The notes under the pieces: model-generated
Database searches by the model: none
What the model was told of the DNA's origin: nothing
The model's input: only the letters and a program-made list of their open reading frames with translations
Shown here: positions 27,058 to 50,849 of the stretch, piece after piece
Numbering within the stretch: the stretch's first letter is position 1
How the letters are laid out: every line of letters begins with the position of its first letter
Position numbers and translations under genes: made by a program
NCBI RefSeq assembly: GCF_000374445.1
Contig: NZ_KB894430.1
Coordinates: forward strand, 1 to 64,000
Length of the DNA stretch: 64,000 bases
Source: Actinokineospora enzanensis DSM 44649
Lineage (GTDB): Bacteria; Actinomycetota; Actinomycetes; Mycobacteriales; Pseudonocardiaceae
Direction of reading: 5' to 3'

Positions 27058-28269
27058 TCAGAACAGCGCGGCGGTGTGCAGCTTGGTCCAGCGCTGCTCG
27101 AACCCGGCCTTCTTCTTGTTGTGGACGCCGTGGGGCACGAGGGCCCACATCCACTCGATGGCGGGGTAGCGGATCTGGTCGTCGTCCGCGCGCTTGTGCC
27201 GCCAGGCGCGGGTGATGCCGTAGGCGTCGGTCTCGACCGTGACGCCGTCGAGGGCGCGCAGCCAGTCCCGCATCTCCTTCCGGCCGCCGGTCGCGGCGAC
27301 GGCGACGCTGCGCCAGGAGTCGCCCTTGAGCGTCTCGTCGCCGTCCTTGGGCATGAAGAACCGGCGGACCTCCAGCACGTCCCAGACCTCGGTGCGGTCG
27401 ATGCGCGAGCTGGCCAGCGCGAGCGCGTCGTCGAGCTGGTGGTCCCGCGCGAGGTCGACGGCGGTCTTGCCGACGCCGAAGGCCCCGATCCTGGGATTCA
27501 AGGCCAGCGCGGTGTACTCGAGTTCGATCGCGTACGCGGCGGCGTCGGGCTGGTCGCGCCACCGGGCGACGAGTTCGTCCCGGCTTCCCGCCGTCGCGCC
27601 GGTGAACGGGCAGAACGTGCAGCAGGAACGCGAGAACGGCTCGCCGAAGATCCCCAGCAGGTAGGTCGCGCAGTCCTGGCGATCCCAGTTCCACTGCTCC
27701 AGCAACGGGTAGGACGGCTGGCAGGGCACGGCCTTGCCCTTGGCCTCCTTCTCGCGGCGGGCCTCGGTGTCGCGCTTGGCGCGGCGGCCTTCCTCGGCGG
27801 CGAAGCCCACGACGTGGGTGTAACCGGGCTCCATGTTGTCGGCCACCCACCAGTCGAGCACGTCCCCCTTCGCGCGCTCAGAGCACCAGCGCCGTCCATT
27901 CCGGACGCTGGGCAGCGTCCCGGCCGCGCGCATCTCGTCCGAGAGCCGCCACGGGCCGCGCATGTGCATCCGCCGTGGCGAGCAGGTGTCGCTGAGCACG
28001 ACGTAGCCGTGTTTCCTCTCCTGGCCGGCGCGGCAGAGCTGGACGTAGCGAATGCGGTGTCGCCGCATCAGCGTGAGCACGTGGCGTTCCATCAGCTCGC
28101 GCGTGCGGTCGTGCTCCTCGCCGGTCATCGCGGTTATCACGACCAGGTCGCCGAGGTCGAAGTCCCGGCTGGCCGGGTTGAGGATCCAGTGCGCCAGAAG
28201 GGAAACAGAGTCGATGCCCATGCCGAGCGAGAGGACGACCCGGCGGCGGGGCTGCGAAGTGGCGGTCAC
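27058..28269 (-). CDS. PAPS reductase-like protein of phage type
   Basis: A 403-residue protein. GTG 28269 overlaps the stop of the Mom-like gene as GTGA. Near residue 13 it has LSLGMGIDSVSLL, a variant of the SGGxDS pyrophosphate-binding loop, and later a Cys-rich region SCCTFCPFTGAT that could hold a metal or Fe-S cluster. The family includes PAPS reductases, DndC of DNA phosphorothioation and several phage proteins. Coupling to a Mom-like modification enzyme suggests a role in making a modified base or backbone, but no Dnd partners are seen. Substrate unknown. Confidence 0.75.
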   Translation of the reverse strand: MTATSQPRRRVVLSLGMGIDSVSLLAHWILNPASRDFDLGDLVVITAMTGEEHDRTRELMERHVLTLMRRHRIRYVQLCRAGQERKHGYVVLSDTCSPRRMHMRGPWRLSDEMRAAGTLPSVRNGRRWCSERAKGDVLDWWVADNMEPGYTHVVGFAAEEGRRAKRDTEARREKEAKGKAVPCQPSYPLLEQWNWDRQDCATYLLGIFGEPFSRSCCTFCPFTGATAGSRDELVARWRDQPDAAAYAIELEYTALALNPRIGAFGVGKTAVDLARDHQLDDALALASSRIDRTEVWDVLEVRRFFMPKDGDETLKGDSWRSVAVAATGGRKEMRDWLRALDGVTVETDAYGITRAWRHKRADDDQIRYPAIEWMWALVPHGVHNKKKAGFEQRWTKLHTAALF

Positions 28270-29147
28270 CGGAGCACCCCGTCCAGGCCGGGCAGGAACA
28301 GCGTCGGCTTCGGGTAGCGGCGGGCGGCCAGGCCGATCACGGTGCGGGTGCGCTCGCCGCGGGTACGGCCGATCCGGACGGCGTACTTGTGGTTGCCCTC
28401 GTGCCAGCGGCGGGTGATCCCGCAGGCACGCCTGGCGCGCTCGATCCACTGGCCGGGGTCGAGGTCGGTGGTCAGCGGCGGCGCACCGCGCCCGACCAGC
28501 CGGGCAACGACGCCGTGGCCACCGACTTCGCCGTTCGCGACCTTGGAGATCGAGCGGCGGTTCCACTCGGTGCCGTCCGGGAAGTAGTCCTTCCAGCTCG
28601 GTCGGGTCTGCCCGAGGTAGTCCATGTTCAGGCCCTGGTAGGCGACGCCGTAGTGGCCGCGTTTGACCTGCACGAGCTGGCCGTCCGGGCCGGGCTGCCA
28701 GAACTCGCTCGGGTCGGAGAACGCGATCACGCCCCGGATGCCGTGCTCGGCCGCGAGACGGAGCGCGCGAGTGGCGAACCACGACTCGCCGTTGGCGGGC
28801 ACCGAGTCCCGCAGGACCATCCGGTTCAGGTCCAGGGATTCCTCGTAGGGAACGAGCTGGGGGAACGGGTTGGTCAGCGCGTTGGGGTGCGAGCCGTTGC
28901 CCAGGGAGATCACGCCGACCAGCTCGGTGGTCTGCTCGGCCTGGGTGTCGAACAGGCCGAACTGGAAGCGGGTCTGCGGGAAGACGCCGGTGTAGTGGTG
29001 CGCGGTCACGAACGTCTTGCCGGTCGCCTTGGGGATTTCGGCGACCGCGTAGCGGCCGGGGTCGAACCCGTCTTCTCCGGCGGGCCGGTACAGGGCGGAC
29101 TTCTCGCGCCAGCGCTGGGTGCGGGTCGGTGCGGCGGGTGCGGGCAT
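28266..29147 (-). CDS. Mom-like DNA-modification acyltransferase
   Basis: A 293-residue protein. After ATG 29147 a core resembling phage Mom proteins runs from about residue 40 to 165: TAHHYTGVFPQ, ELVGVISLGNG, LNRMVLRDSVPANGESWFAT and GVIAFSDPSEFW. Mu Mom is a GNAT-fold enzyme that converts adenine in DNA to a carbamoylmethyl form and so blocks restriction. The extra C-terminal 100 residues include HKYAVRIGRTRGERT and may bind DNA. It is coupled to the PAPS-reductase-like gene, and leader copy 10 lies upstream. Confidence 0.8.
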   Translation of the reverse strand: MPAPAAPTRTQRWREKSALYRPAGEDGFDPGRYAVAEIPKATGKTFVTAHHYTGVFPQTRFQFGLFDTQAEQTTELVGVISLGNGSHPNALTNPFPQLVPYEESLDLNRMVLRDSVPANGESWFATRALRLAAEHGIRGVIAFSDPSEFWQPGPDGQLVQVKRGHYGVAYQGLNMDYLGQTRPSWKDYFPDGTEWNRRSISKVANGEVGGHGVVARLVGRGAPPLTTDLDPGQWIERARRACGITRRWHEGNHKYAVRIGRTRGERTRTVIGLAARRYPKPTLFLPGLDGVLR

Positions 29148-34190: not shown

Positions 34191-35879
34191 TCAGGCCGCG
34201 AAGGGGAGCTCGTCGTACTCCAGCGGCGGGTAGCCGAGTGATTCCGCGATCCGGGCGAGCAGCCACTCGGCGGCCGGGGGAGTCACCGCGTTTCCGAGTT
34301 GCTTGACGCGCTCGCGGCGGGTGCCCAGCAGCGTGTAGCCGTCGTTGAAGGCCATCGCGGCGCGGATCTCGTCGGGCTCCAACATGCGGAACGTGGACTC
34401 GGCCAGCGCGGGCGGGAGGTCGCCCCGGTCCTCCAGTTCGCCGGAGGCCGAGACGCCGAACCGGGCGAAGTCGAGGTTGGCCGTCCAGCCGACCAGCGAC
34501 TGGTGCCCGGCGGTGGTGATGGTGCGGGCGGGCTCGGTGACCGGGGTGCACATCATGCCGTCGCGGGCCGGGCCCCTGGTCCCGTTGTTGCGGACCAGCA
34601 TGTGGTGGTTGCCGGACGCGGTGACCGTGGAGATCGGCTCGGTGATCGGGCGGACCTTCTTCTTGCAGCCGCCGCCGCGCAGTTCGGCGATGAACGCGAT
34701 GCCGAACCGGTCGTGGCTGGTCACCGTGCGCAGGGGCTGGCTGGCCGGGTCGGCCTTGGTCTCGCTGCCGTAGTACGCGGTGATCAGCGCGGAGTCCGGC
34801 GGGCGGAGCAGGCCGGTCTCGGCGCGGGTGGTCTGGGTGCGCAGCGGCTCGTTGGTCGAGCGGGCCTGCTTCCCCTCACGGCCCTCGCACGGCACGATCA
34901 GGCCGCCGGGCGGGACGGCCAGGCCCTCGGTCTCGCGGGTGGTGCGGGTCCGCATCGGCAGGCTCACCGGCGTGGTGTCCTCGTTCCAGCCGCCTCCGGC
35001 CGGGACGAGCTGCGGCACGGCGTACTTCTTGAGCCCGGCGGTGATGCGGGCCAGGGTCGCGGGCTGCAGCGGCTTCTTGCGGTCGCCGATGCGCTGGCCG
35101 GGCAGCGACCAGTCGATCGCGGAGGCGGCCGGAGCGGCGAACGGCTCGACCTCGGCGTTGCGGCAGGTCGCGCTCGGGCACCGGTAGGTGTACTGGGCGC
35201 GGTAGCGGCCCCACCGGTCCGACGGCCACGACTTGCCCGGCTTCTTGAACACCTGCATGGCCCGCACAACCACGTCGCATTTCGCGCAGTAGGCGGCCGG
35301 GCGCAATTCCAGGTCCGGAGCCTTGTTCGCCCTCTTCCAGAAAACGACGTAAACACGGTCGCGAGACTGCGGGGCACGAAGGGTTTTCGCGGTTGGGAAG
35401 TGCATGGAATTGGCGTAGACGATTTTGAAGTCGTAGCCCTCGTTCACCATGCTCAACAGCCAGTCGTCGAAGTCCGTCCAGAACAGGACGTCCACGACGT
35501 TTTCCACCACGACGGCCTGATACTGGTGCACCTTCGTGAAGGTGACGACGTCCCACATGGTCGCCCGCGACCGCACGACAGCCTCGTCGGGCAGAGTCTC
35601 GCCGAACAGGTCCGGCTGCGTGTGGCGCTTGATTCCCTTGGCCTGACTGTGGTTCGTGCACTCCGGGCTGAACCAGCCGAGGTCGGTCTTGGGGAAGTAA
35701 CGCGGGTCCACCGTGGACAGGTCGGTCACGGAGTGGTCCGCGTGCGGGAAGTTCGCGGCGTGACTCTGGACCGCGAGATCCCAGTGGTTAATGGCGTGGA
35801 TGAGCTGAATTCCGGGAACTGCTTCTGCACCTTGGGCGCTGCCGCCCGCGCCACAGAAATGGTCGATGAGTGTAAGCAT
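34191..35879 (-). CDS. C5-cytosine DNA methyltransferase
   Basis: A 562-residue enzyme that should transfer a methyl group from SAM to C5 of cytosine in DNA. Motif I is DHFCGAGGSAQG (6-17). Motif IV reads GWFSPECTNHS with the catalytic Cys74, where most enzymes have a PCQ triplet. Motif VI is VVENVVD (Glu126), motif VIII QSRDRVYVVF and motif X KQLGNAVTPPAAEWL. The target region carries a zinc-ribbon-like insert (YCAKCD, CPSATC). No restriction enzyme is adjacent, so it probably protects the element or adds an epigenetic mark. It stands under leader copy 15. Confidence 0.9.
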   Translation of the reverse strand: MLTLIDHFCGAGGSAQGAEAVPGIQLIHAINHWDLAVQSHAANFPHADHSVTDLSTVDPRYFPKTDLGWFSPECTNHSQAKGIKRHTQPDLFGETLPDEAVVRSRATMWDVVTFTKVHQYQAVVVENVVDVLFWTDFDDWLLSMVNEGYDFKIVYANSMHFPTAKTLRAPQSRDRVYVVFWKRANKAPDLELRPAAYCAKCDVVVRAMQVFKKPGKSWPSDRWGRYRAQYTYRCPSATCRNAEVEPFAAPAASAIDWSLPGQRIGDRKKPLQPATLARITAGLKKYAVPQLVPAGGGWNEDTTPVSLPMRTRTTRETEGLAVPPGGLIVPCEGREGKQARSTNEPLRTQTTRAETGLLRPPDSALITAYYGSETKADPASQPLRTVTSHDRFGIAFIAELRGGGCKKKVRPITEPISTVTASGNHHMLVRNNGTRGPARDGMMCTPVTEPARTITTAGHQSLVGWTANLDFARFGVSASGELEDRGDLPPALAESTFRMLEPDEIRAAMAFNDGYTLLGTRRERVKQLGNAVTPPAAEWLLARIAESLGYPPLEYDELPFAA

Positions 35880-40668: not shown

Positions 40669-40769
40669 GCCCGAGGCCATCAGCTCGGTGAGGTTGCGGG
40701 ATTCGCGACGTGCCGCAGGGCACGCTCGCTGCGACCAGCCGGTATGAGCACCCGACGGAGTACAGCGCG

Positions 40770-41297
40770 ATGATCAAGCACGCAACGGCGTCCACCTTTC
40801 TGTTCCATCGGTTTCCGACCGAGTGGCGTCTCGGCCTGATCGTGCATCCCCGGTTGGGCAGGCACATGGTCGTCGGTGGGCATGTCGAGCCTGACGAGAC
40901 GCCAGCGGCGGCGGCCGAACGTGAGGCGGTCGAGGAATCCGGTCGAAAGGTGCTGCTCGTGCCTGGCCCGGCGCTGGGCCTGCCGGACGGGTATCCGCAT
41001 CGGCAGGTGCCGGCGCCGTGGTGGATCACCGAGATCGACGTTCCGGCCGACAATCATCTGGGCGAGCCACACGTTCACGTCGACCATCAGTACGTGGGGG
41101 TTGCCGAGTCGCCGCATCAGGTCAGCGAGCCCGCGCACCCGTTCGCCTGGGTAGCCGAGCACGAACTCGACAGCCTGCTGATGTTCGAGGACACGAGGCT
41201 GTTGGCGCGGTCGCTCTTCCCACACGTCACTGCTATCGCCGCATCGGACGGTGGCGCGCAGCTGCTTCGGATGCTGGCTGGGACCAGCCTGTCCTGA
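40770..41297 (+). CDS. NUDIX hydrolase
   Basis: A 175-residue protein with the NUDIX box at about 32-54: G in GGHVEPDETP, then AEREAVEESG, fitting GX5EX7REUXEEXGU. These enzymes hydrolyse nucleoside diphosphates linked to another group. CGGAG stands nine bases before ATG 40770; a longer form from GTG 40710 is possible. The region after the box is His-rich (HQVPAPWW, EPHVHVDHQY reading PHVHVDHQYVG). Substrate unknown. It converges with a second NUDIX gene 28 bases away. Confidence 0.85.
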   Translation: MIKHATASTFLFHRFPTEWRLGLIVHPRLGRHMVVGGHVEPDETPAAAAEREAVEESGRKVLLVPGPALGLPDGYPHRQVPAPWWITEIDVPADNHLGEPHVHVDHQYVGVAESPHQVSEPAHPFAWVAEHELDSLLMFEDTRLLARSLFPHVTAIAASDGGAQLLRMLAGTSLS

Positions 41298-41324: not shown

Positions 41325-41789
41325 TCAGCGACCGGCCAGGGCTGGCACGGCAGGGTGCGGCCAGCCCTGCAGACCGAACGACTCGCCGCGGCGGTAGAGC
41401 TCGACCCCGGCGTGCGTGTACGGCACGGTGTTGTCCGGGAGCTGGCCGAGAGGGAACCACCGGATCTGTGAGCACTTGTGCGGCTCGGCGTTGCGGGGTT
41501 CTCCGCGCCATTGGCGCGCGTAAAAGAAAAACCCCACGCGAGCGTGACCTTCGGGATTGAGGTAGTGCACGGTCGTGACCATGTCGAGGTCGTCGCGGTC
41601 CAGCTCGACGTCGATTTCCTCGCGGGCTTCGCGGATGATGGCGGCGACCATGTCTTCGCCCTGTTCGAGCTTGCCGGAGGGAAGGTTCCAGTCGCCATCG
41701 GCGTAGCCGGTGTCGAAGCGCTGGGCGAGCAGGACGTGCCCGTCGCGGACCAGGAGGAGCATGACGTCAACAAAGCTGGTGTACGGCAC
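41325..41789 (-). CDS. NUDIX hydrolase, last gene of the radical SAM operon
   Basis: A 154-residue NUDIX protein with the box SGKLEQGEDMVAAII followed by REAREEID (about 38-61); the final conserved Gly of the box is Asp. Segment NLPSGKLEQGE precedes the helix as usual. It follows the P-loop kinase by 44 bases in the same direction. A role in removing a nucleotide made or used by the operon is plausible but not shown. Confidence 0.85.
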   Translation of the reverse strand: MPYTSFVDVMLLLVRDGHVLLAQRFDTGYADGDWNLPSGKLEQGEDMVAAIIREAREEIDVELDRDDLDMVTTVHYLNPEGHARVGFFFYARQWRGEPRNAEPHKCSQIRWFPLGQLPDNTVPYTHAGVELYRRGESFGLQGWPHPAVPALAGR

Positions 41790-41833
41790 GTCGTGGTCAT
41801 CCTGTGCTGGTCGGCGGCGTGGAAGGCCACAGG

Positions 41834-42442
41834 TTATCCGGCGAGGACCAGACCGGCGTCGGCGACCCGCCGGGTGATCCAGTCGACACGCTGTTCGGTC
41901 TCGAGTCCAGCCGGGACGTCGAGGATGGGCACGCCGAGCCGGTCGTAGAGCTCGCGCAGCGTGGTGGCGGCCTTGTCCTGCAGGCCGGAGACCTTGGCGC
42001 GGAAGCCGTCGGTGGGTTGGTCGTAGTGGTCGTGGGTGAAGAAAACGAGGTCGTAGGTGGGCGCCCAGGCTCGGCAGAAGTGCTCCATCGCGTCGAGCAC
42101 CGCGGCGTCGAGGCTGCCGGGCGCGACGTCGAGCAGCATCCGGGCGTAGGCGAGCACGTTGACGATCGTCTTGTCGGCGATGAGGAGCTGGTGGTGGCGT
42201 GCGGTGCGCAGGTGGAACTGCAGGTGGGCGGCGAACACGTCGACTTCGGCGGCGAGGTCGAAGGTGCCGCGCCCGTGGATGACGATCTCCTCCATGAATG
42301 GGCTGGTCCGAGCTGGCTCGCCCATCGCGGCGACGTTGACGCCCTGGCGCCGGTAGGTGGCGGTCAGGGCGTGGATGAGGGTGGTCTTGCCGGAGGCGTG
42401 CGTGCCGTCGATGGCGATGGTCTGGCAGTCGCGGATCGTCAC
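41834..42442 (-). CDS. P-loop nucleotide kinase-like protein
   Basis: A 202-residue protein with Walker A GTHASGKT (13-20) in AIDGTHASGKTTLIHAL, and a likely Walker B or substrate segment YDLVFFTHDHYDQP (about 133-146). The fold resembles thymidylate kinase or NadR-type kinases. LLIADKTIVNVLAYARM suggests a DK-type substrate-binding motif as in deoxynucleoside kinases. It starts ten bases after the preceding nuclease-fold gene. The substrate is unknown. Confidence 0.78.
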   Translation of the reverse strand: MTIRDCQTIAIDGTHASGKTTLIHALTATYRRQGVNVAAMGEPARTSPFMEEIVIHGRGTFDLAAEVDVFAAHLQFHLRTARHHQLLIADKTIVNVLAYARMLLDVAPGSLDAAVLDAMEHFCRAWAPTYDLVFFTHDHYDQPTDGFRAKVSGLQDKAATTLRELYDRLGVPILDVPAGLETEQRVDWITRRVADAGLVLAG

Positions 42443-42452
42443 GGAGTCCCTT

Positions 42453-43223
42453 TCACAGCAGGTCGGTGAAGGTCGGATGGGCGAGCCATGCGAAGGAGTC
42501 GTCGAGCTGGTCGGCCAGCAGCCGGTTGACGTTGAGGGTGCCGCTCCAGCCGGCGCGGCCGGTGGCGCGGAAGGCGACCAGGGCGGTGGACAGGCTGTGG
42601 CGCAGGTTGAGCACGCTGACGCGTTCGCGGGCTTCGACGGAGCCCTGGTCGAGGTAGGCGCGGTGCAGCGCGGTCATGGACTTGGTGCGCAGCTCGGGCT
42701 GGGTGACGTCGAGCCGTAGCTCCGTGCAGACGTCGACCAGGCGGCGGGACTTGCAGGCCAGCACGTGGTCGGTGTCGTAGCGGGTGTCGATGACGCGGCG
42801 CTCGACTAGGTCGCCGTCCCGGCGGCTCCGCCAGGCCTGGCGGGCGCTGGCGACGTCCTCCAGGGGCGCGGCGCTCGCGTTGGCCAGGACGCCGAGGTCG
42901 CTGGTGAACTGGTGGCCGGTGACGTGGTCGGCGGCAGCGAACGCGGTGCTCACCGCCTTGTTGGCTGCGGCCAACAAGGCGGGGATCTCGTCCGGGTTCT
43001 CGATGTAGACGCTGGTGTAGGAGAAGGGCAGCTCGGTCAGGTCGACGGAGTCGCCGCTGCGGGGCAGCGCGGCGTAGACCACGGAGTAGCAGAACGGCTT
43101 GTTGCCGTTCTTGATCCGGTAGTTCTTGGTCCACTCGACGTCGATGGATGCCCAGAGCGTCGTCCCGGCGGTGCGGCGGGGTGCCCGGCCGTTCTTGCCG
43201 GGGATGTTCGTGGTGATGATCAT
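42453..43223 (-). CDS. Exonuclease-fold (DnaQ/RNase H-like) protein
   Basis: A 256-residue protein with CGAAGGAGCGGAC before its ATG. LWASIDVEWTKNY (about 23-35) resembles the DxE motif of 3'-5' exonucleases, VTGHQFTSDLGVLA the second motif with Asp, and RVIDTRYDTDHVL a further acidic segment. The canonical final HxxxD is not clear, so activity is uncertain. The neighbour 43291-44022 is a diverged copy, with the same order of GHxxxxDL, VIDT and a helical C-terminus (SLSTALVAFRATGRAGW). Confidence 0.6.
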   Translation of the reverse strand: MIITTNIPGKNGRAPRRTAGTTLWASIDVEWTKNYRIKNGNKPFCYSVVYAALPRSGDSVDLTELPFSYTSVYIENPDEIPALLAAANKAVSTAFAAADHVTGHQFTSDLGVLANASAAPLEDVASARQAWRSRRDGDLVERRVIDTRYDTDHVLACKSRRLVDVCTELRLDVTQPELRTKSMTALHRAYLDQGSVEARERVSVLNLRHSLSTALVAFRATGRAGWSGTLNVNRLLADQLDDSFAWLAHPTFTDLL

Positions 43224-43290
43224 GTCCGCTCCTTCGGGATGTCGGGGTGGTGGCCCGGTCCATCTTGGTGCCGGGCCACCACCGTGTGGG

Positions 43291-44022
43291 TCAGGGGGCG
43301 AGCGCGTCGGTCGGCTTCTCGGCGAGATGGTCGAGCTGGTCGAGGTGGTCCCAGGCCGCGTCGGCGACGAGGTCGTCGAGGTCGACCGGGCTGGTCCAGT
43401 CGTATCGGCCGGCGGCGCGGGCCGCGACGAGGGCGATCGCCAGCGTGCGGACGATGGCCTGTCGCACGGTCACTGCCAGCGAGGCGCCCTCGGGCGGGGC
43501 GAGCGTGGCGGCCTTGAGTGCGGCGTGCTCGCACACCGCGGCCAGGTCGGTCACCGCCGGTTCGCCGATGTCGTGCGCGGTGTCGATCACCTTGGCGGTC
43601 CCGCGTTCCTTGGCCTGACGTGCGGTCCACTGCTGGCGGACGCTGTCCACTCCGGGAAGCCGACGGTCAACGCCGAACGCCGTGAGCGCGGCGAGATCGG
43701 CGGCGACGTCGTGGCCGGCGAGGACCTTGGCGTGGCGTCGGCTGGCCACGAGGATCTCGTCGAACCGTTCGGGCAGGATGGCGGGGCTGTCGTCCGGTTC
43801 GCTGGTCAGCACCTCGAACCCGAAGTTGAGGCTCTGGCCGTCCAGCGACAAGGTGCGGGTGGAGTCGGTGTAGAGGTAGATCACGCAGGCCCACTCGGGG
43901 CGCCGCACGTACCCGGTCAGACCGACCGCGACGGCGGCCATCATCGGCCGCTCCGGAGCGAACGGGCGCTGGGTGGCGCCGTACGGCTCGATCGGCCAAT
44001 GCAGGTTGGTGGTCCTACGCAT
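43291..44022 (-). CDS. Diverged exonuclease-fold paralogue
   Basis: A 243-residue protein. ATG 44022 is chosen because GCGAGG lies eight bases upstream and this start falls inside the end of the radical SAM gene. Segments VLAGHDVAADLAALTAFG, KVIDTAHDIGEP and LAIALVAARAAGRYDW match the order of the neighbouring exonuclease-fold protein, but the first DxE motif is not evident (WACVIYLYTDS). It may be an inactive partner of the downstream protein. Confidence 0.6.
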   Translation of the reverse strand: MRRTTNLHWPIEPYGATQRPFAPERPMMAAVAVGLTGYVRRPEWACVIYLYTDSTRTLSLDGQSLNFGFEVLTSEPDDSPAILPERFDEILVASRRHAKVLAGHDVAADLAALTAFGVDRRLPGVDSVRQQWTARQAKERGTAKVIDTAHDIGEPAVTDLAAVCEHAALKAATLAPPEGASLAVTVRQAIVRTLAIALVAARAAGRYDWTSPVDLDDLVADAAWDHLDQLDHLAEKPTDALAP

Positions 44023-45004
44023 GACTGCCACCTCGCTGGGTGGCGAGGATGCTGGTGCCCAGGTACTTCGCGACGTGGTTGCGCTTGAACCGGTAACGCT
44101 GCCAGATCTCGGTGATCGGCTCCTCGAGCACGTTGCCCAGCGGCTCGAACAAGTTCTTCGCGTCGTACACCGGCCAGGCGCTGGCCTGGCCGGTCGGCTC
44201 GATGCAGATCATGTGGCCTTCGGTGGACTCGTTCCACGTGGTCAGCCGGAGGGCAGGCTGCCAGCCGAACGTGGCAGCCAGGCTGGTCAGCTCGCCGAAC
44301 TTGACCTCGGCTTCGGCCTCGGTGATGAACTCGCTCTCCTGCAGTTTGAGCGCGTTCCCCTTGCGCAGCGGCATGATGAGCTTGAGCTTGCCCGCGTCGA
44401 TCGCGTCGGCGATCTGATAGAGGTAGGGCAGGCCGTGCAGGCCCGAGCGCAGCGCCACGCAGGACAGCGACAGCGGGAGCCCGTGCTCCTGGAACGCACG
44501 GATCCCGGTCATGATCTTGTCCCAGTCTCCGCGCAGTCGTGCGGTGATCGCACGCGGGCCGTCGAGACCGACGTTGACGTAGGCGATCTTGCCGACCATG
44601 CGCTCAGCCCACTGCGCGCCCCTGGTCGCGTTGGTCGGGATCCCGAGGATGAAGTCGGGGGCGTACATGTCGACGACGTCGCCGAAGTCCCGGCGCAGCA
44701 AGGGTTCACCGCCGGAGAGGAACACTCGTTGCACGCCCGCGAGGTTCGCGCGCATGGTGTCGAGCTGGTCCAGGGTGGGGTCGGGCAGTTGCAGCGTCTC
44801 CGAGCAGAAGTTGCAGTCGAAGTCGCACCTCTTGGTGATCTGCTGGATGACCGAGAGCGGGGCGTTGATCTGCTCGGCGAGCTCGTCGACGGACGTCTCG
44901 CCGTTGAGCCGGAAGTGGTGTCCTTCGGTGAAGATCACCGGCCCGGACTGTGCCTGAACCAGCGGTGCGGGGGCGGGCATGGTGGGCATACCGAGGTTGG
45001 TCAC
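44015..45004 (-). CDS. Radical SAM enzyme
   Basis: A 329-residue protein starting at GTG. ITKRCDFDCNFCSE supplies Cys60, Cys64 and Cys67 of the CxxxCxxC cluster motif, FLSGGEPLLRRD is the SAM-binding GGE motif, and IPTNATRGA and VNVGLDGP complete the barrel signature. Two C-terminal segments (HMICIEPTGQASAWPVYDAK, LGNVLEEPITEIW) resemble the end of SPASM-type enzymes, but the cysteines expected of SPASM are missing. Substrate unknown. It heads the enzyme part of a long operon with nuclease-fold, kinase and NUDIX genes. Confidence 0.9.
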   Translation of the reverse strand: MTNLGMPTMPAPAPLVQAQSGPVIFTEGHHFRLNGETSVDELAEQINAPLSVIQQITKRCDFDCNFCSETLQLPDPTLDQLDTMRANLAGVQRVFLSGGEPLLRRDFGDVVDMYAPDFILGIPTNATRGAQWAERMVGKIAYVNVGLDGPRAITARLRGDWDKIMTGIRAFQEHGLPLSLSCVALRSGLHGLPYLYQIADAIDAGKLKLIMPLRKGNALKLQESEFITEAEAEVKFGELTSLAATFGWQPALRLTTWNESTEGHMICIEPTGQASAWPVYDAKNLFEPLGNVLEEPITEIWQRYRFKRNHVAKYLGTSILATQRGGSHA

Positions 45005-45077
45005 GATGGAACCCTTTCCTGTTCTACCTTGGGACAGAACAACATCAGCCCGTCCACAGTGGACGGACTGCTGGCTG

Positions 45078-45380
45078 TTACACCTCGCCTTCCGGGCCCA
45101 ACACGACGCCGTCGTCGATCTCGACGAGCTCGTATCCCTCGGGCACCGCGAACGCGGTCAACCAGTCCTGTGCCTCCCGGCCGCCGCGGGCGAGCTGCTC
45201 CTCGACGTCCGGGGAGGGTGCGCTCCGAGCGCGGCCTGCGGCGGCGAGCTCGGCGTTGCCGTAATAGTTGTTGACCCAGCCGTGCTCGGTCGCCAGCTCG
45301 ATCAGGCGGATGTTCACGCCGCGCGTCGTGTTCGCGCGCACCAGCACGCCGGCGGTGTTCAGCAGGGTGGCTTGGCCCAT
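45078..45380 (-). CDS. Small unknown protein upstream of the radical SAM gene
   Basis: A 100-residue protein with AGAAGGAGAACGTCGT before ATG 45380. An N-terminal amphipathic region (VLVRANTTRGVNIRLIELA) is followed by an Asn/Tyr patch (GWVNNYYGNAELAAA) and an acidic C-terminus. A small gene directly before a radical SAM gene can be a modified peptide precursor, but this one has no Cys-rich or Gly-rich core, so that role is only a possibility. Confidence 0.65.
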   Translation of the reverse strand: MGQATLLNTAGVLVRANTTRGVNIRLIELATEHGWVNNYYGNAELAAAGRARSAPSPDVEEQLARGGREAQDWLTAFAVPEGYELVEIDDGVVLGPEGEV

Positions 45381-45399
45381 ACGACGTTCTCCTTCTCTG

Positions 45400-45798
45400 T
45401 CAAGGCAAGTTGTTCGGCGGCGGGGGACTGGCCGGTCTGGGCGGCCGGGAAATCGTGACGATCTTCGTGCGGTACCTGGCCTCGTTGAGCGCCTGCGCGA
45501 ACGCGGTCACGTAGGCGCCGAGGACGGCAGCGTCCTGCGCGTCGACGTCATTGAGTCCGGGCAGGTGAGCCTCGGTGAGAAGGAGGTAGACCTGGCTGCT
45601 GTCATCGCGTGCCGCGCGGCCGTCGCAGATCAGCCAGACCGCAAGCCGGGGATCCTGGATGATCAGCCGAGGGAGTTTGCCCTGGACGCGCTGGTGAGCT
45701 GGCTTCTTGCCTCGCTCCTCGGCGGTGATCACCGCGGCACGTAACGCGGCCGTCTCGGCGATGGGCACGACGTCGCGCGGCTCTGGTCGTTGAGCCAT
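45400..45798 (-). CDS. Unknown 132-residue protein
   Basis: Its ATG shares a base with the preceding stop (TGATG). The protein is alpha/beta in pattern, with RLIIQDPRLAVWLICDGRAA and SSQVYLLLTEAHLPGL, a helix (VLGAYVTAFAQALNEARY), and a Pro-rich end. Function unknown. It belongs to the 47340-41325 operon. Confidence 0.65.
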   Translation of the reverse strand: MAQRPEPRDVVPIAETAALRAAVITAEERGKKPAHQRVQGKLPRLIIQDPRLAVWLICDGRAARDDSSQVYLLLTEAHLPGLNDVDAQDAAVLGAYVTAFAQALNEARYRTKIVTISRPPRPASPPPPNNLP

Positions 45799-46343
45799 CA
45801 CGCGGTCACGGAGGTGGATCGCGACCTGGCGAAGTGCGAGTGCCCCGGTAGCTCGGGGAGTTCGAGGATCGCTTCGACGACCTCAGTGAACAGGCCGACC
45901 TTGGTCCATCGCACCTGCCGCAGCCGCTCACGCGCGGCGTCGTCGAGCGCGTGCTGTTCGTCCTCTTTCAGGGTCTGCTGGTCGTCGCCGTCGAGTTCCG
46001 CGTCGTCCGGCATGAACGCGGACAGGTCGTCGGAGCTGGGCACGGTGAAGAGGTCGTCGGGACGGAACGCGTCGACGGGCACCCGGTAGGCGAACGAGCC
46101 GTCCCAGGACGCGAGGACGACCCAGGTCACGCCCTTCCAGAACCGCTGGAACATGCGAGCAGGTCGGTCACGATCCATCGCGGGATCGGTCACCAGCCGG
46201 TCGGACTGGGTGTATCCGGCGCGGCGAAGGCGCTCGACAGCACGGCGCACGGCGGTGGCGCCTTCGGCTGTCTCTAGCGCGCCCCACGGGTCGTCGAGGG
46301 CGAGGGCCTTGATCTTGCTGCGTTCCGTGGTCGGTTCCGGCAT
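45798..46343 (-). CDS. Unknown 181-residue protein
   Basis: ATG 46343 follows GGGGAAG. A basic helical region (AVRRAVERLRRAGYTQSDRL) precedes strands (GVTWVVLASWDGSFAYRVPV) and an acidic helical part (DDQQTLKEDEQHALDDAARE). No family is recognised. Its stop is coupled to the next gene. Confidence 0.65.
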   Translation of the reverse strand: MPEPTTERSKIKALALDDPWGALETAEGATAVRRAVERLRRAGYTQSDRLVTDPAMDRDRPARMFQRFWKGVTWVVLASWDGSFAYRVPVDAFRPDDLFTVPSSDDLSAFMPDDAELDGDDQQTLKEDEQHALDDAARERLRQVRWTKVGLFTEVVEAILELPELPGHSHFARSRSTSVTA

Positions 46344-46397
46344 GGTTCTGGCTTCCCCGGTGGTTGTTATGGCTGGCAAGCTGGCGAACCGCCTCAG

Positions 46398-46811
46398 CTA
46401 GGTCTTGTCGCGGCCCTCGAAGAACCACTCCGGCGCTTGCTGAGCGGGTTTGCCTTGGTGCTGGTTGTCGGGAACTGGTTCGGCAGGGTTCTGGCCGGTC
46501 GGCTGATGCAGGTGCTCCGAAAGATCCATCGCGTACTTCAGGGCCTCGCCCACCGGCAGGAACTCCTCCCAGACCACGTTGTGGTCAAAGGGAAAGTCCG
46601 GGTTGTAGCTGGCCACGCAGTGCAGCAAGAGTGACGGCGCGTTGAAGCTCAACGTCACGACGTCGACGTAGCGCTCGCCTTCCTCGGTGTAGATCAGCGA
46701 GAGCTGGACGGCTCGGACCTTGTGAAGGATCGGGTTCGGCCTGACCTGCCAGCCGGCGCTCAGCAGCCAGCGGACACCGGACCTGACTTCGTCTTCGGCG
46801 GGCATGGTCAT
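46398..46811 (-). CDS. Unknown 137-residue protein
   Basis: ATG 46811 overlaps the stop of the small membrane protein (ATGA). It looks like an alpha/beta protein: a helix (EVRSGVRWLLSAGWQVRPNP), strands (AVQLSLIYTEEGERYVDVVT, SLLLHCVASYNPDFP) and a final polar tail rich in Gln and Pro. No family is recognised. Confidence 0.65.
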   Translation of the reverse strand: MTMPAEDEVRSGVRWLLSAGWQVRPNPILHKVRAVQLSLIYTEEGERYVDVVTLSFNAPSLLLHCVASYNPDFPFDHNVVWEEFLPVGEALKYAMDLSEHLHQPTGQNPAEPVPDNQHQGKPAQQAPEWFFEGRDKT

Positions 46812-46951
46812 GCTGCCGCCTTTTGCTGCCGGGCCTCGGCCACGGCGGCGTCCCTGGCGTCCTGCCGGATGCGCGTGGCCCAGTAGATCAACCGGGCGAA
46901 GAAGATGAGCGCGGCAATGATCACGAACACGACCACCATCGGAGAAGTCAC
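46808..46951 (-). CDS. Single-pass small membrane protein (47 aa)
   Basis: GTG 46951 overlaps the preceding stop as GTGA. Residues 5-23 (MVVVFVIIAALIFFARLIYW) form one transmembrane helix, followed by a basic, Ala-rich cytoplasmic tail. Its stop in turn overlaps the next start. Tight coupling on both sides supports a real gene despite its size. Confidence 0.7.
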   Translation of the reverse strand: MTSPMVVVFVIIAALIFFARLIYWATRIRQDARDAAVAEARQQKAAA

Positions 46952-47340
46952 CGCCCTGCCATGACACGGAGCGCTGACCGCACGCTGGGCACCGCGGGGG
47001 ATTCGATCTGCTGGTGCGGCAACGTCAAGCAGAACTCGACAGTCGCCTCCAGGTCGGGCATCGCGCACGCTGAGCGGCGCTCGTTGCGGCCGCGCCAGCC
47101 GGAGTCCGTGTTGAGATCAGCGGTGGCGCCGCACGCGCAGAACGACGTGCCGCCCGCCGGGAACTGGCTGAGCCAGCCGTCCGACCTGCGCTCCCACCAC
47201 AAGGCGATGGTCTGCGCGCGGCAACGATGCAGGACCCACGGCAGAGAAGCGGCGTACCAGGGCACGCCGTCGAGATGCTTGACGACTGGATCGGCGGGAG
47301 TACCAGCGTGGACGCCTTCGCGTTGCCAACGACCGGACAT
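46948..47340 (-). CDS. Unknown 130-residue protein, first gene of the operon
   Basis: ATG 47340 follows GAGGCGGTTGAGAC. The protein has AQTIALWWERRSDGWLSQFP and TSFCACGATADLNTD, with a Cys pair that might bind a metal, and a later helix. It opens the leftward operon that reaches 41325 and faces the XRE regulator gene across a 400-bp divergent region. Confidence 0.65.
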   Translation of the reverse strand: MSGRWQREGVHAGTPADPVVKHLDGVPWYAASLPWVLHRCRAQTIALWWERRSDGWLSQFPAGGTSFCACGATADLNTDSGWRGRNERRSACAMPDLEATVEFCLTLPHQQIESPAVPSVRSALRVMAGR

Positions 47341-47394
47341 GTCTCAACCGCCTCTTCCCGACCTTGGTGGTTCCCAGCGAGGCCCTGGGGGCGT

Positions 47395-47425
47395 GATCGA
47401 GCCAGGTCGGGGGTCCGGCTCGATC
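47395..47425. promoter_or_regulatory. Inverted repeat in the divergent region 47341-47741
   Basis: GATCGAGCC and GGCTCGATC form a perfect nine-base inverted repeat separated by 13 bases, 55 bases upstream of the first gene of the leftward operon. It could be the binding site of the divergently encoded XRE protein. The rest of the 400-bp region holds promoter-like AT patches near 47590-47610 but no gene. Confidence 0.45.
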
Positions 47426-47741
47426 TCCTAGAGCCCCGCTGGGGGCTTGAGGCCGGCCGGGCGGTGTGGTGGCGGTTCCCGCGGGGGGTCCGGATTACCG
47501 CGTTAGCCCACGTCACAGGGACGCCAGGGGGGAGGAGCGTCCTCTGCTCCGCCCGGCCGGTTGCGGCTCTCCCGAACCGCGTCCTTACCATAGACCGAAA
47601 ACTTAAGATGAAGTGTAGCCCGTATGGGTGGCGTACCTGATGGTGTGACGCACGGACTTGCGACACTGTGTGTGTAGACGCTGGTGAAGGTGCTGTAGTA
47701 AGCCCCGACTTCAGCGACGAGAACACGGGAAGCGAGGCAGG

Positions 47742-48620
47742 ATGCCAGAGCAACGAGAAGACCCCAAGGCGCTGCGCTGGCTCATCGGCTCCGAGCTGCT
47801 CAACGCGCGGAACAAAGCCGGGGCCACCCAGGCGCAGGCGAGCAAAGCCGCAGGGTGCAGCCACGTAACGGTCAGCAACATGGAGTCAGGTTCGACAGCC
47901 CAGGAGCCTGCGCGCATCACGAAACTGATGAAGTTCTACAAGTGCGACCAGTCCGACATCGACCGTCTGGCTCGTCTCGCTGGTAGCTACGCAGGCAAGG
48001 GCGCCTGGTGGGCCGACTTCAAGGACGTCGTCGAAGACTGGTTCGCCACCTTCGTCGGCCTCGAGGGCCTGGCGAACGCCGAGTTCGTGTGGGAGCCGAT
48101 GGTCATTCCGGGGATGCTGCAGATTCCCGCCTACCACGAAGCCCTGCTCGACAACCATCTTCGGTTCTCGCCGGCCGAGGTGCCGAACGTAGTCAGCTTG
48201 CGCCGCGCCCGCCAGGAGCGCTTGCGATCGTCCGAGAATCCGCTCGACTTCACCACGTTCATCGAGCCGCGAACCCTGGACCGCCTCGTCGGAGGCCCGC
48301 AGGTCATGCGACAGCAGCTCGAAGCCCTGCGAGAATGGAACAAGCTGCCGAACGTGCACCTCTACGTCCCATCCGAGGAGATCGCCGTTCACGACGGCCT
48401 CGACGGGGAGTTCACGCTGTTGGACTTCGCGGTGGCGCAGAGTATCGGCTACATCGAGTTCCAGGATGGAGCCCGCTACATCCAGGACCAAGATCGAGTC
48501 AGGACATACGATCTGGCCCGGAAGCGGATGTGCAAAGCCGTGGCGCAGGACCACGACGAGGCACGCCGCCTGGCCGAAGAGGCGATCGCCTCACGTCTCG
48601 ACCGCCTCGCGGCAGCTTGA
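47742..48620 (+). CDS. XRE-family regulator with DUF5753 domain
   Basis: A 292-residue regulator. The N-terminal helix-turn-helix (about 14-70) includes ARNKAGATQAQASKAAGCSH and VTVSNMESG. The rest is the DUF5753 domain of actinobacterial XRE proteins, recognised by FVWEPMVIPGMLQIPAYHEA, RRARQERL, LREWNKLPNVHLYV and IEFQDGARYIQDQDRV. Members such as WhiJ act with a DUF397 partner encoded next door, as here, and control development or defence-like operons. It likely regulates itself and the leftward operon. Confidence 0.92.
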   Translation: MPEQREDPKALRWLIGSELLNARNKAGATQAQASKAAGCSHVTVSNMESGSTAQEPARITKLMKFYKCDQSDIDRLARLAGSYAGKGAWWADFKDVVEDWFATFVGLEGLANAEFVWEPMVIPGMLQIPAYHEALLDNHLRFSPAEVPNVVSLRRARQERLRSSENPLDFTTFIEPRTLDRLVGGPQVMRQQLEALREWNKLPNVHLYVPSEEIAVHDGLDGEFTLLDFAVAQSIGYIEFQDGARYIQDQDRVRTYDLARKRMCKAVAQDHDEARRLAEEAIASRLDRLAAA

Positions 48621-48640
48621 AGTTGAAGGAGGACAACAAC

Positions 48641-49042
48641 ATGCCCGGATCTAAGGAGCTCGTCTTCAGGGCCAGCTCCTACTCAAACGGCGGTGGCGGG
48701 TGTGTAGAACCCGCGCCGCATTCCAGGGGGGTGACTGTGCGTGACAGCAAGGACCCCGAGGGGCCGCGTCTGGAGTTCACCCACGATCAGTGGGCCAACT
48801 TCCTTCACGAGGTCAACAACGGACTGGCTTGCTCCAACGGTGCTGTCACGATTAGTACCGAGGAGCTCGCTCTGGTATATCGCGGCGAGCTGAAGCACAC
48901 CTGCTGGCACCTGCACGCTGTGAACTCCGAAGTCACGCTGCATTTCACCGAGGGCGAGCGCGTCGCGTTCCTCGCCGGTGCTCGCGGCGGCGAGTTCAAC
49001 TTCACCGAGTCCCCGGCTCTCGCTGCTGCTGCTGCGAGCTAA
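48641..49042 (+). CDS. DUF397-domain partner of the XRE regulator
   Basis: A 133-residue protein with GAAGGAGGACAACAAC before ATG 48641. LVFRASSYSNGGGGCVE and VTVRDSKDPEGPRLEFTHDQ (about 8-50) are the DUF397 signature; WANFLHEVNNG ends the domain. The C-terminal half is extra to the usual 60-70 residue family. DUF397 proteins bind the upstream XRE/DUF5753 protein and relieve or modify its repression. Confidence 0.9.
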   Translation: MPGSKELVFRASSYSNGGGGCVEPAPHSRGVTVRDSKDPEGPRLEFTHDQWANFLHEVNNGLACSNGAVTISTEELALVYRGELKHTCWHLHAVNSEVTLHFTEGERVAFLAGARGGEFNFTESPALAAAAAS

Positions 49043-49075
49043 TCCCCTGGCTCCCCACCACTGGTCCTGATCAAC

Positions 49076-49108
49076 AAGGGCCGCCCGCAACTCCTGCGGG
49101 CGGCCCTT
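49076..49108 (+). terminator. Intrinsic terminator after the DUF397 gene
   Basis: AAGGGCCGCCCGC pairs perfectly with GCGGGCGGCCCTT over 13 bases, with a seven-base loop and the T-rich AATCGTTCTTTG after it. It may also serve the leftward gene ending at 49137. Confidence 0.85.
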
Positions 49109-49136
49109 AATCGTTCTTTGACTGACGTAGTTGCGG

Positions 49137-49499
49137 TCAGCGGTCACTGCTCGGATGTCTGGGCCCCCACTGCTCAGCAAGGTCTTCAAGGGCGGAGTGC
49201 ATGTCGGCCGTCAGGCCGGCCCGGTCATCGCTGATGCTCTCGGCCGTGATGACGACCGTGCCACGCCACGGGTAGTTGGGGTCGTAGCCGATGGCGCCGA
49301 GGACGTGGGCGGCCAGCGGGTTAGGTGGCATCGCCGCGGTGAAGGTGTCGTTGAACCAGGCCCGCAGGCGTCCCATGCCCTGGCTGGCCTTGTCGGGGAT
49401 GTGCCCGACGATGGCGCTCTGGAGCTCGTCGGCCGTGGTGGTGTGGAAGGTTAGGCCGTCCTGCGGATGCAGCACGGCGAACTCGACGTCGGCTGTCAT
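49137..49499 (-). CDS. Small unknown protein, possibly DUF3846-like
   Basis: A 120-residue protein. ADELQSAIVGHIPDKASQG, LRAWFND and PPNPLAAHVLG follow the layout of DUF3846-type proteins of actinobacterial mobile elements; the match is by eye. The same order (LHKAIVGHVAAV, LRWWFAP, PPNPLADAVLE) occurs in the protein at 51363-52151, so the two share a domain. Function unknown. Confidence 0.65.
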   Translation of the reverse strand: MTADVEFAVLHPQDGLTFHTTTADELQSAIVGHIPDKASQGMGRLRAWFNDTFTAAMPPNPLAAHVLGAIGYDPNYPWRGTVVITAESISDDRAGLTADMHSALEDLAEQWGPRHPSSDR

Positions 49500-49552
49500 G
49501 CTTATTCTCCCTGTTCAGAGGCATTAGGAATCTGCTTCACAATGCTTTGGCG

Positions 49553-50827
49553 CTAGGACTGCCCGCGGTCCTCGTCGTCGTCCTCCGGCGGTTCCTCCTC
49601 GGCCGACACGATCTGGGTGAGCTGGGTCCGCAGCGAGGTGATGTCGCTGCCCCGGTCGGCCGTGGCGAGCGCCGTGAGCAGCCGTGTGCGCAGCCTGGTC
49701 AGGTCGTCAGCAGCGGTTCGGTTGCGCTCGGCGGCGGCCGTCGCCTGCTCGGCTCGGGTGGTGAGCCGGGCAACCTGGCCGGTCAGGTCGGTGATTTGGC
49801 TGTTCAGCCCGGTGATCGTGTCGGCGGTCTCGCGCTCGGTCTCGCGGCGTTGGCGCTCGAACTCCGTCTGCTGGTCGTCCAGCTTGGCGTCGAACTCGGT
49901 GCGCTGTTCCTGCAGCTTGGCGTCGGCCTCGGTGCGTGCGTCGTTGAGCGCGTTCTCGCACTCGGTGCGTTGTCGATCGAGTTGCCCGCGCAAGTCGTCC
50001 GTGGCGGTGGTGAGCTGCTGTACGCGCGAGGTGAGTTCGCCATTGGCGCCGGTCAGCTCGCCGATCCGGGTGGCCTGCTCGGAGATCGTGGTGTTCGCCG
50101 TCGCCAGCGAGTCGGTGGCCTCCTTGGCGGTTTGAAGAGCGGCTCCTGCGCGGGTGTTGGCCTCCTTCTCCCGGTCCTCCGCTTCCCTCTTCGCTGTCTT
50201 GGCCTCGTCGCGTTCGACGAGCGCCGCGCCCTCGTTGCGCCGGGCTTCGGCGGCGTCGTCGACGGCCTCCTGCTTGGCGGCGAGTGCGTCGTTGCGGGCG
50301 ATGGTGGCGGCCTGGGTTTCCTGACGGGCCAGGTCGGCGTCAGCGACGGCCTGCTCGGCGCGAGCGAGCGCCTCGACGACTTCGCCGGCCAGGCGCCCGT
50401 CGAGCTGGGTGAGGTCGCCGCGCACGGGGTCGAGCACGGCGAACAGGGCGTCGAGGGCGGTGCGCAGGGCGTCGAGGTTGCGGGCCTGGGCGTCGACGTC
50501 GAGGTGGGACAGCGGGCCGGTGCCGCCGTAGACGGCCAGCCACAGGTCGTGGGCGTCGTCGAGGCGGGCGCAGGTGACGCCCTTGCCGCGGTGGTCCTGG
50601 CCCCAGACGTGCTCGCAGTGCCTCGGGCGCGGGCCTCCGCCCCTGCTGGCCGGTTTGCGCGGGTAGCGCTGGCAGAACTCGCACAGCTCCGGGTCGGCGA
50701 GCCGTTCGCGCCTTTCGTCACCGCGACGCAAGGCCGGAGGGGTGGGAGGCCGCTCGGCCAGCGCGTTCGCGTCGCTCTCAGCTGCCTCACCAGGGGAAAC
50801 AGCCGGGTCGCGCTCATCCTCTGTCAT
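49553..50827 (-). CDS. KfrA-like coiled-coil plasmid protein with zinc motif
   Basis: A 424-residue protein. Residues 48-85 carry CEFCQRYP, HCEHVWG and VTC, a likely zinc site. From about 115 to 410 it is one long coiled coil with heptad-like Glu/Ala/Arg/Thr repeats (ARQETQAATIARNDALAAKQ, EFERQRRETERETADTITGL). The shape is that of KfrA proteins, plasmid-encoded DNA-binding coiled coils that help partition and repress their own gene. The N-terminus here is a zinc motif instead of the usual KfrA HTH. Palindromes directly upstream fit autoregulation. Confidence 0.7.
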   Translation of the reverse strand: MTEDERDPAVSPGEAAESDANALAERPPTPPALRRGDERRERLADPELCEFCQRYPRKPASRGGGPRPRHCEHVWGQDHRGKGVTCARLDDAHDLWLAVYGGTGPLSHLDVDAQARNLDALRTALDALFAVLDPVRGDLTQLDGRLAGEVVEALARAEQAVADADLARQETQAATIARNDALAAKQEAVDDAAEARRNEGAALVERDEAKTAKREAEDREKEANTRAGAALQTAKEATDSLATANTTISEQATRIGELTGANGELTSRVQQLTTATDDLRGQLDRQRTECENALNDARTEADAKLQEQRTEFDAKLDDQQTEFERQRRETERETADTITGLNSQITDLTGQVARLTTRAEQATAAAERNRTAADDLTRLRTRLLTALATADRGSDITSLRTQLTQIVSAEEEPPEDDDEDRGQS

Positions 50828-50849
50828 GATCGAGATTCTACACGACTAA

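Follow-up and report, generated by a model that had tools for sequence, protein, structure and literature searches.

A five-gene radical SAM module of actinobacteria and their phages, possibly for nucleotide-based antiphage chemistry

What does a tightly packed run of genes that sets a radical S-adenosylmethionine (rSAM) enzyme beside two exonuclease-fold proteins, a kinase and a NUDIX hydrolase do for the DNA that carries it? The locus in question lies at positions 41325-47340 of a 64,000-nucleotide stretch of Actinokineospora enzanensis DSM 44649 (contig NZ_KB894430.1; the window, hereafter, is this whole stretch), where eleven minus-strand open reading frames (ORFs), overlapping or at most 73 bases apart, diverge from an XRE-DUF5753 gene and a DUF397 gene. 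In reading order they are g11, g10, g9, g8, g7, g6, g5 (the rSAM enzyme), g4 and g3 (the exonuclease-fold proteins B and A), g2 (the kinase) and g1 (the NUDIX protein). A sequence-only reading had noted the packing, the radical SAM, kinase and NUDIX genes, the two related DnaQ-fold proteins with DxE missing from one, and the divergent XRE/DUF397 pair, all of which our analysis bore out (Pfam matches and coordinates in the table; mutual homology, a structural model of A and absence of DxE from B, described below). It had also treated the eleven genes as one set. When conservation as a unit was examined, the five genes from g5 to g1 held together and the eleven did not: the conserved unit is five genes.

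The order rSAM-B-A-kinase-NUDIX is kept at 10 loci, namely the window, three named actinobacteria, one isolated phage and five IMG/VR contigs. Scanning genome contigs with the rSAM alignment returned full-length relatives in Actinophytocola xinjiangensis (76%), Mangrovihabitans endophyticus (66%), Kitasatospora sp. GAS204B (63%) and a Propionicimonas metagenome-assembled genome (49%), the first three with all five genes in the order and strand seen in the window. Genes 39-43 of Streptomyces phage Gilgamesh are the same module (rSAM 59% identity); only two of 50,697 phage records gave an rSAM match, both of them Gilgamesh, and the flanks of its module had no DNA relative among phage records except Gilgamesh itself. 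The five IMG/VR contigs are L135, L136, L137, L154 and L162. The plasmid collection yielded no rSAM relative at E<=1e-12. The ratio of nonsynonymous to synonymous substitution (dN/dS) was 0.15-0.38 for all five genes, B included, in four close pairs (0.38 for B against Actinophytocola), and 0.33-0.69, highest for B, in the distant pair of window and Mangrovihabitans (dS 0.78-1.16). The five-gene unit is thus under purifying selection, and because four bacterial genomes and six phage records or contigs preserve its order, with dN/dS of 0.15-0.38, its assembly is not a matter of chance.

Genome draws told the same story of linkage. In a class-wide draw of 394 genomes (the window's own included), the rSAM profile was found in 12 and the exonuclease-fold profile in 10, and all 10 were among the 12, at the same places; the two other rSAM genomes hold a divergent relative (G682) and an rSAM fragment (G502). 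A draw of 390 genomes from the family gave rSAM in five (the window's own, G080, G307, G023 of the divergent branch, and G079 with a fragment). A-type proteins turned up in four, one of which (G306) is a 141-residue fragment in a genome with no rSAM match; in each genome these searches scored only the 5 or 6 top candidates of a first look, so their absences are not proof. Among genomes of one family, f32, the A profile found only the B gene beside rSAM in nine of ten, and nothing in G502.

Variants of the module exist. The nine f32 loci (L122-L130) have rSAM-B-kinase-NUDIX and no A; L122 and L123 are near-identical, the kinase of L126 matches over 160 residues in an ORF that was called split, and in L128 other genes stand between kinase and NUDIX. 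Two further loci (L022, L131) hold kinase, rSAM and A only, L131 with a MazG-like ORF beside A. No additional gene was seen to travel with the module: among the 21 loci whose proteins were clustered, the most widespread other clusters were two of regulators, at 6 and 5 loci, and one of a SAM methyltransferase, at 5 loci, with no exporter. Ahead of the f32 genes, DNA aligns before and into the rSAM gene, over roughly the last 350 bases and with matches in all frames, in seven of the eight loci given to the alignment (L122, L124, L125, L126, L128, L129, L130; no anchor was found in L127), and this conserved DNA is possibly a promoter or a leader RNA. Rfam gave no match in the window or in 8 other loci, among them four of f32 (L124, L125, L130 and L123, the near-twin of L122). 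Separately, on the 70-kb viral contig L135, two tandem Exo_endo_phos proteins (L135:5965-7835) directly precede the module, and a relative lies upstream in L154.

The six remaining genes of the packed run fared differently. Clustering gave g6-g11 no cluster in common with the 20 other loci clustered, tblastn (E<=0.01) found none of them at a set of 20 module loci, and g6, g8 and g9 were unmatched in 72,556 plasmid records. The sole trace of any of the six, the 50-residue match of g8 in L020 (E=0.004), lies away from the module and was seen with a smaller database, not in the 20-locus tblastn. As DNA, positions 45010-50830 of the window drew just two short unrelated matches from the plasmid collection. 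The eleven genes as a unit were accordingly rejected, and a single transcript joining g6-g11 to g1-g5 is putative. Coding scores run from 19.6 to 150 for the ten ORFs other than g11, which falls below them. Of the ten genes scanned (all but g10), Pfam and NCBIfam assign a usable family only to g5, g2 and g1, and PHROGs to g2, g1 and weakly g5. XRE/DUF397 pairs are also seen near the module both here and in L135.

Table. Genes of the window's locus and its divergent neighbours, followed by the contents of the corresponding slot in phage contigs.
Feature	Position	Strand	Evidence or content
g5, radical SAM (rSAM) enzyme	44015..45004	-	Pfam PF04055 5.1e-14; CxxxCxxC at residues 60-67; SPASM-like C-terminus
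g4, exonuclease-fold protein B (by homology)	43291..44022	-	homology to A; DxE lost; H104, W131, D146, T147 (g3 numbering) kept
g3, exonuclease-fold protein A (predicted)	42453..43223	-	model pLDDT 91.2; D28, E30, D109 kept; fourth acid apparently replaced by T213
g2, P-loop nucleoside/nucleotide kinase (AAA_28), thymidylate-kinase-like	41834..42442	-	PF13521 1.1e-12
g1, NUDIX hydrolase, intact box and conserved EPHKC segment	41325..41789	-	PF00293 3.3e-20
g6, 100 aa, no family	45078..45380	-	no match at other module loci
g7, 132 aa, no family	45400..45798	-	no match at other module loci
g8, 181 aa, no family	45798..46343	-	single weak 50-residue match in L020
g9, 137 aa, no family	46398..46811	-	no match at other module loci
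g10, 43 aa, one membrane span (by eye)	46808..46939	-	no match at other module loci
g11, 130-aa ORF, weak coding score	46948..47340	-	coding score 10.9
Divergent HTH (XRE)-DUF5753 regulator	47742..48620	+	PF19054 1.6e-40, PF13560 9.9e-10
DUF397 protein	48641..49042	+	PF04149 2.4e-19
Slot of L150	about 2 kb to 9 kb, before portal gene		SAV_5884-type graspetide (ATP-grasp RiPP) set: TIGR04186 precursor, TIGR04187 maturase, PCMT
Slot of L148	about 2 kb to 9 kb, before portal gene		lanthipeptide-type: lanthipeptide-dehydratase-C/PCMT fusion, ABC transporter, MazG-like protein, methyltransferase-NUDIX protein
Slot of L147	about 2 kb to 9 kb, before portal gene		D-Ala-D-Ala-ligase-like and Mur-ligase-C proteins, C39-like peptidase
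Slot of L145 (L146, L155 alike by eye)	about 2 kb to 9 kb, before portal gene		TauD-like oxygenase, glycosyltransferase
Slot of L143 (L151 alike by eye)	L143:3211-8966; L151:2420-8190		thymidylate-synthase-like, NDK-like, CxxxCxxC protein, RNase_T exonuclease, AAA_28 kinase, aldo-keto reductase, small protein

Proteins A and B, which match nothing in Pfam, NCBIfam or PHROGs, are predicted to share an exonuclease fold, A from its AlphaFold2 model (the pLDDT, or predicted local distance difference test, in the table is the mean) and B by homology only. The best structural neighbours of the A model are exonuclease domains of family-B DNA polymerases, with Z about 14-15.6 over 168-197 residues, led by DNA polymerase alpha (Z 15.6, root-mean-square deviation (rmsd) 3.2, 187 residues) and including archaeal PolB (Z about 14). 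DNA polymerase alpha has itself a dead exonuclease. DxE is present in 10/10 rows of A, all with D28, E30 and D109, and in 0/15 rows of B, where D28 is lost throughout and H104, W131, D146 and T147 are retained in 15/15; at the best placing, the fourth catalytic Asp of A (third motif) appears to be Thr 213 in 10/10 rows, a pattern read by eye. A simple nuclease is therefore not assured, since B lacks DxE, A apparently lacks the fourth acid and nine loci manage with B alone. In a midpoint-rooted tree the two proteins form two clades with matching inner groups (phages and Kitasatospora, support 0.98/0.94; window and Actinophytocola, 1.0/1.0), as expected of one duplication followed by joint travel; some other nodes are weak (0.43-0.64), and the tree includes 7/9 f32 loci and leaves out L154 and L162.

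Among the other partners, the kinase g2 satisfies the AAA_28 model (49 bits against a cut-off of 27) and scores below the cut-offs of two thymidylate-kinase models (PF02223, 18.9 vs 27 bits; TIGR00041, 18.0 vs 83.25 bits). The PHROG thymidylate kinase profile matches at 8.1e-16, and 14 of 21 PDB profile matches are thymidylate kinases (best 1.6e-4), the top three of the 21 being RecA P-loop matches; the sequence evidence points weakly to thymidylate kinases as the nearest relatives. The NUDIX domain of g1 scores 72.9 bits (gathering score 21.1), its box residues are invariant in 11/11 rows, and its best PDB match is MutT/NUDIX (9.5e-18). A second NUDIX gene (40710-41297; PF00293 1.5e-6) lies convergent with g1 in the window, and L135 and L021 likewise have NUDIX-like ORFs after the module. 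A distant rSAM branch, at about 30% identity, is represented by L016, L017 and L121, and by an rSAM fragment only in L018. Its loci place beside rSAM a thymidylate kinase (TMK)-like kinase and an HhH-GPD-like protein (L016, L017, L121) and a MazG-like protein (all four), where the HhH-GPD-like and MazG-like calls lie below Pfam cut-offs and L121 was placed by clustering only. Each branch has thus retained a kinase along with a putative pyrophosphohydrolase and a fold that acts on DNA.

The rSAM enzyme itself has its CxxxCxxC motif invariant in 9/9 aligned rows and a SPASM/twitch-like C-terminus that, by eye, apparently lacks auxiliary-cluster cysteines (the SPASM Pfam model reaches only 0.091). 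When its model (pLDDT 79.6) was compared with known structures by VIA-align, viperin-like enzymes bound to CTP or UTP came first (Z 22.7, rmsd 2.6, 253 residues).

Where the module sits bears on what it may be for. In Gilgamesh it lies between integrase/helix-turn-helix (HTH) genes and the portal gene, and a search with the Gilgamesh portal recovered 16 IMG/VR loci, of which two carry the module (L154, and L158, which is the same contig as L137) and nine carry other genes in the slot (L143, L145-L148, L150, L151, L155, L156). Within the 4-6 kb examined, neither L152 nor L153 matched rSAM, A, B or the kinase, L153 having a 41% NUDIX, and three (L144, L149, L157) were not classifiable for slot content. 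Altogether, five distinct phages have the module in this slot (Gilgamesh, L136, L162, L154, of which only the portal side is in view, and L137). The genes that replace it include cassettes for ribosomally synthesized and post-translationally modified peptides (RiPPs; table). One alternative, that of L143, resembles the module in outline: its CxxxCxxC protein belongs to no Pfam or NCBIfam family, and single-sequence hhalign comparison with the module gave probabilities of 5% for that protein, 0.5% for the exonuclease and 95% for the kinase. With the kinase related and the other two not recognisably so, we regard this cassette as analogous to the module and not as a variant of it. Carriage by phages in a variable cargo slot is thus directly observed.

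The genes on the window's 115,910-base contig make a plasmid or an integrative element the most likely carrier there: a relaxase (56% to one from an Amycolatopsis plasmid), an integrase, a resolvase, two proteins with a DnaB N-terminal domain and, by eye, a ParA-like protein. The contig ends showed no exact overlap of 20-399 bases. The same element encodes a Mom-family protein (28266-29147; PF25680 4.3e-20) and a C5 DNA methylase (34191-35879), and elsewhere on the contig (L182:3620-5847) a large ORF that by eye looks like a ribonucleotide reductase is followed by a NUDIX-like ORF. Some f32 modules have LANTHIPEPTIDE neighbours: genes for FxLD lanthipeptide methyltransferases occur within 10 kb in 3/9 genomes against 0.14 expected (Poisson P 4e-4, from 40 such genes in about 65 Mb), a statistic that treats related genomes as independent, uses distances chosen after the positions were seen, and draws on short contigs that hide neighbours. 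Within 20 kb the count is 4/9, and the FxLD precursor itself is in view in two of the three genomes with a gene within 10 kb. A review places the lanthipeptide clusters of Actinomycetota in defence islands and states that Streptomyces is protected against phages by intracellular lanthipeptides (PMC12360287); an actinobacterial prophage survey reports small clusters, several of them class I lanthipeptide clusters in Streptomyces, with no cluster for any antiphage molecule already known (PMC10023795).

We tentatively favour, at somewhat less than an even chance, a reading in which the module is a mobile cassette that makes a modified nucleotide as an antiphage chemical defence, following the logic of viperin with other parts. 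The genes from g5 to g1 would form a self-contained cassette, cargo of temperate phages and of a plasmid-like element of actinobacteria, in which the rSAM enzyme would make a radical-modified nucleotide or nucleoside, the kinase would phosphorylate this product to its active form, and the NUDIX protein would hydrolyse its triphosphate, keeping dose and self-harm low. The A/B pair could bind either the modified nucleotide or the 3' ends of nucleic acids; A might trim ends bearing this nucleotide, with B as a non-catalytic partner or sensor. The product would then poison the polymerase of an incoming phage, and the resident element would protect its host and itself. Substrate, product, the role of each enzyme and the antiphage effect are what we infer, in contrast to the unit and its gene order, which are observed. 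In favour stand the order at 10 loci, the restriction of the A/B family to rSAM genomes in the class-wide draw (10 of 10), the top match to a CTP-bound viperin-like enzyme, the TMK-like kinase, the MutT-like NUDIX, the partners of the distant branch, the variable phage slot and the FxLD genes within 10 kb, together with the review's placing of intracellular antiphage lanthipeptides in defence islands of actinomycetes.

Here the functional claims of the sequence-only reading can be judged too. A nucleotide-modifying and nucleotide-cleaving set would fit the predicted kinase and NUDIX protein, one of the two groups of folds closest to the rSAM enzyme, and the polymerase-exonuclease fold; the word nuclease is doubtful, with B devoid of the catalytic motif, nine genomes keeping only B, and A seemingly short of its fourth acid. 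Its suggestion of an undescribed antiphage or small-molecule system gains from context only: the module's presence on phages and on a plasmid-like element, a phage slot that RiPP cassettes also occupy, and FxLD genes near a third of the f32 modules.

Several observations weigh against the nucleotide-defence reading. In VIA-align, SkfB (Z 21.4), SuiB (21.1) and PqqE (20.2) nearly tie with viperin, Foldseek ranks SkfB first and viperin second, and sequence profiles put SkfB and PqqE first; the resemblance to the viperin fold is not specific, because other SPASM-type enzymes reach Z 20-21. The curated viperin model NF038283 gives 27 bits against a cut-off of 180, over residues 56-157 only, and sequence alignments of g5 to viperins end between residues 104 and 150, so that only the SAM core aligns. 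Viperin as a name for g5 was rejected on that score, although VIA-align favours it. Searching 256 genomes of the phylum with NF038283 gave 0 matches and is uninformative, 14 control genomes having likewise given none. PADLOC (2023) returns only partial matches (PDC-S07 to the NUDIX, 1.7e-15; pVip to the SAM core, 1.1e-9), with two matches lying above E 0.02. The second PDB match of g1, a geranyl diphosphate hydrolase (3.3e-15), means that its substrate is not fixed as a nucleotide; L022 and L131 show no NUDIX in the flanks examined, the nine f32 loci do without A, and the FxLD count carries the caveats given above.

A bolder version of the same idea is correspondingly more doubtful. It would make the module a chemical immune system carried by phages and plasmids, in which a non-viperin rSAM enzyme makes a nucleotide analogue, the kinase activates it, the NUDIX protein disarms it (a task that would fall to a MazG-like protein in the divergent branch) and a half-dead A/B pair screens 3' ends for it, while the phage slot would hold a rotating arsenal of small-molecule antiphage weapons that includes RiPPs and a second, independently assembled nucleotide cassette.

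Of the alternatives, one would have the module, as a miniature biosynthetic cluster borne by prophages and plasmids, make a diffusible nucleoside-type natural product for bacterial competition, with the NUDIX and exonuclease-fold proteins conferring self-resistance. RiPP clusters do occupy the same slot in other phages, and nucleoside antibiotic pathways include rSAM enzymes (BlsE, Z 17.7 against the g5 model); a secreted product is nonetheless unlikely, for no further gene travels with the module, no exporter is among the widespread clusters of the 21 loci, and kinase and NUDIX point to phosphorylated, hence intracellular, nucleotides.

The enzyme set would also suit upkeep of the DNA or nucleotide pool of the element itself, through repair, sanitation or base modification, with rSAM acting on a base or nucleotide, a kinase, MutT-like clean-up and end binding by an exonuclease fold. 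The HhH-GPD-like and MazG-like partners of the distant rSAM relatives, and the presence of the Mom-family protein and C5 methylase in the window, agree with such a role. We hold it improbable in view of the Gilgamesh-like phages that manage without the module (9/16 with other genes in the slot and 2 more with no rSAM, A, B or kinase match) and of its rarity in genomes (rSAM profile in 5/390 and 12/394).

That SkfB, SuiB and PqqE are among the best sequence and structure matches would suit a RiPP-type pathway in which rSAM modifies a peptide and the other enzymes are unrelated passengers. To this we give a slim chance: four partners are conserved in order, and no short ORF common across lineages (ORFs of at least 18 codons, E<=0.001) was found in the 1 kb before or after the module at 18 loci, a search that could miss a short diverged or distant precursor and whose three cross-lineage matches were the beginning of rSAM, a NUDIX and a match in a shifted frame. 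A non-defensive regulatory or metabolic lysogen trait, such as a nucleotide signal for the choice between lysis and lysogeny, would suit the place between integrase/HTH genes and portal in Gilgamesh and the XRE/DUF397 pairs of the window and L135, and is very unlikely given that the module also sits on a plasmid-like element and that slot content is interchangeable.

If the nucleotide-defence reading is true, the module would give bacteria a second way, again through a radical SAM enzyme, to nucleotide-based antiviral chemistry, equipped with its own activation and detoxification enzymes. Gilgamesh, a temperate-type phage that was isolated on Streptomyces lividans and has been sequenced, already carries it, so that it is directly testable, and a phage locus with swappable small-molecule cassettes would offer a direct way to look for further intracellular antiphage natural products. 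Even with a different product, a strictly linked mobile enzyme set that includes a half-dead polymerase-exonuclease-fold pair would be unexplained biology. Searches of open-licence literature turned up no description of the five-gene module, and the available excerpts of PMC12924846, PMC13118837 and PMC7159879 have no bearing on it.

Four kinds of known system come close. With the prophage-borne biosynthetic clusters and intracellular antiphage lanthipeptides of Actinomycetota (PMC10023795, PMC12360287), the module shares the kind of carrier, the slot in Gilgamesh-like phages and the nearby FxLD genes, and differs in having nucleotide-type enzymes in place of lanthipeptide or graspetide enzymes and no precursor peptide found. 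With SkfB, SuiB and PqqE, g5 shares the fold, and SkfB and PqqE score best with it by sequence; g5 differs in a C-terminus seemingly without auxiliary-cluster cysteines (by eye) and in that no shared peptide gene was found. Like family-B DNA polymerases, A has the fold, the D-x-E and the second-motif Asp, whereas A and B are free-standing, A apparently without the fourth acid and B without DxE; of DEDD 3'-5' exonucleases, too, A keeps the fold and DxE, and B lacks DxE. The last comparison is with prokaryotic viperins (pVips). Viperins convert nucleoside triphosphates (NTPs) to the ddh form. The module resembles pVips in its rSAM enzyme, whose top VIA-align match is a CTP-bound viperin-like enzyme, and PADLOC holds a model for viperins associated with kinases; it departs from them in its NF038283 score, in an alignment confined to the SAM core, and in the NUDIX and exonuclease-fold partners that it adds.

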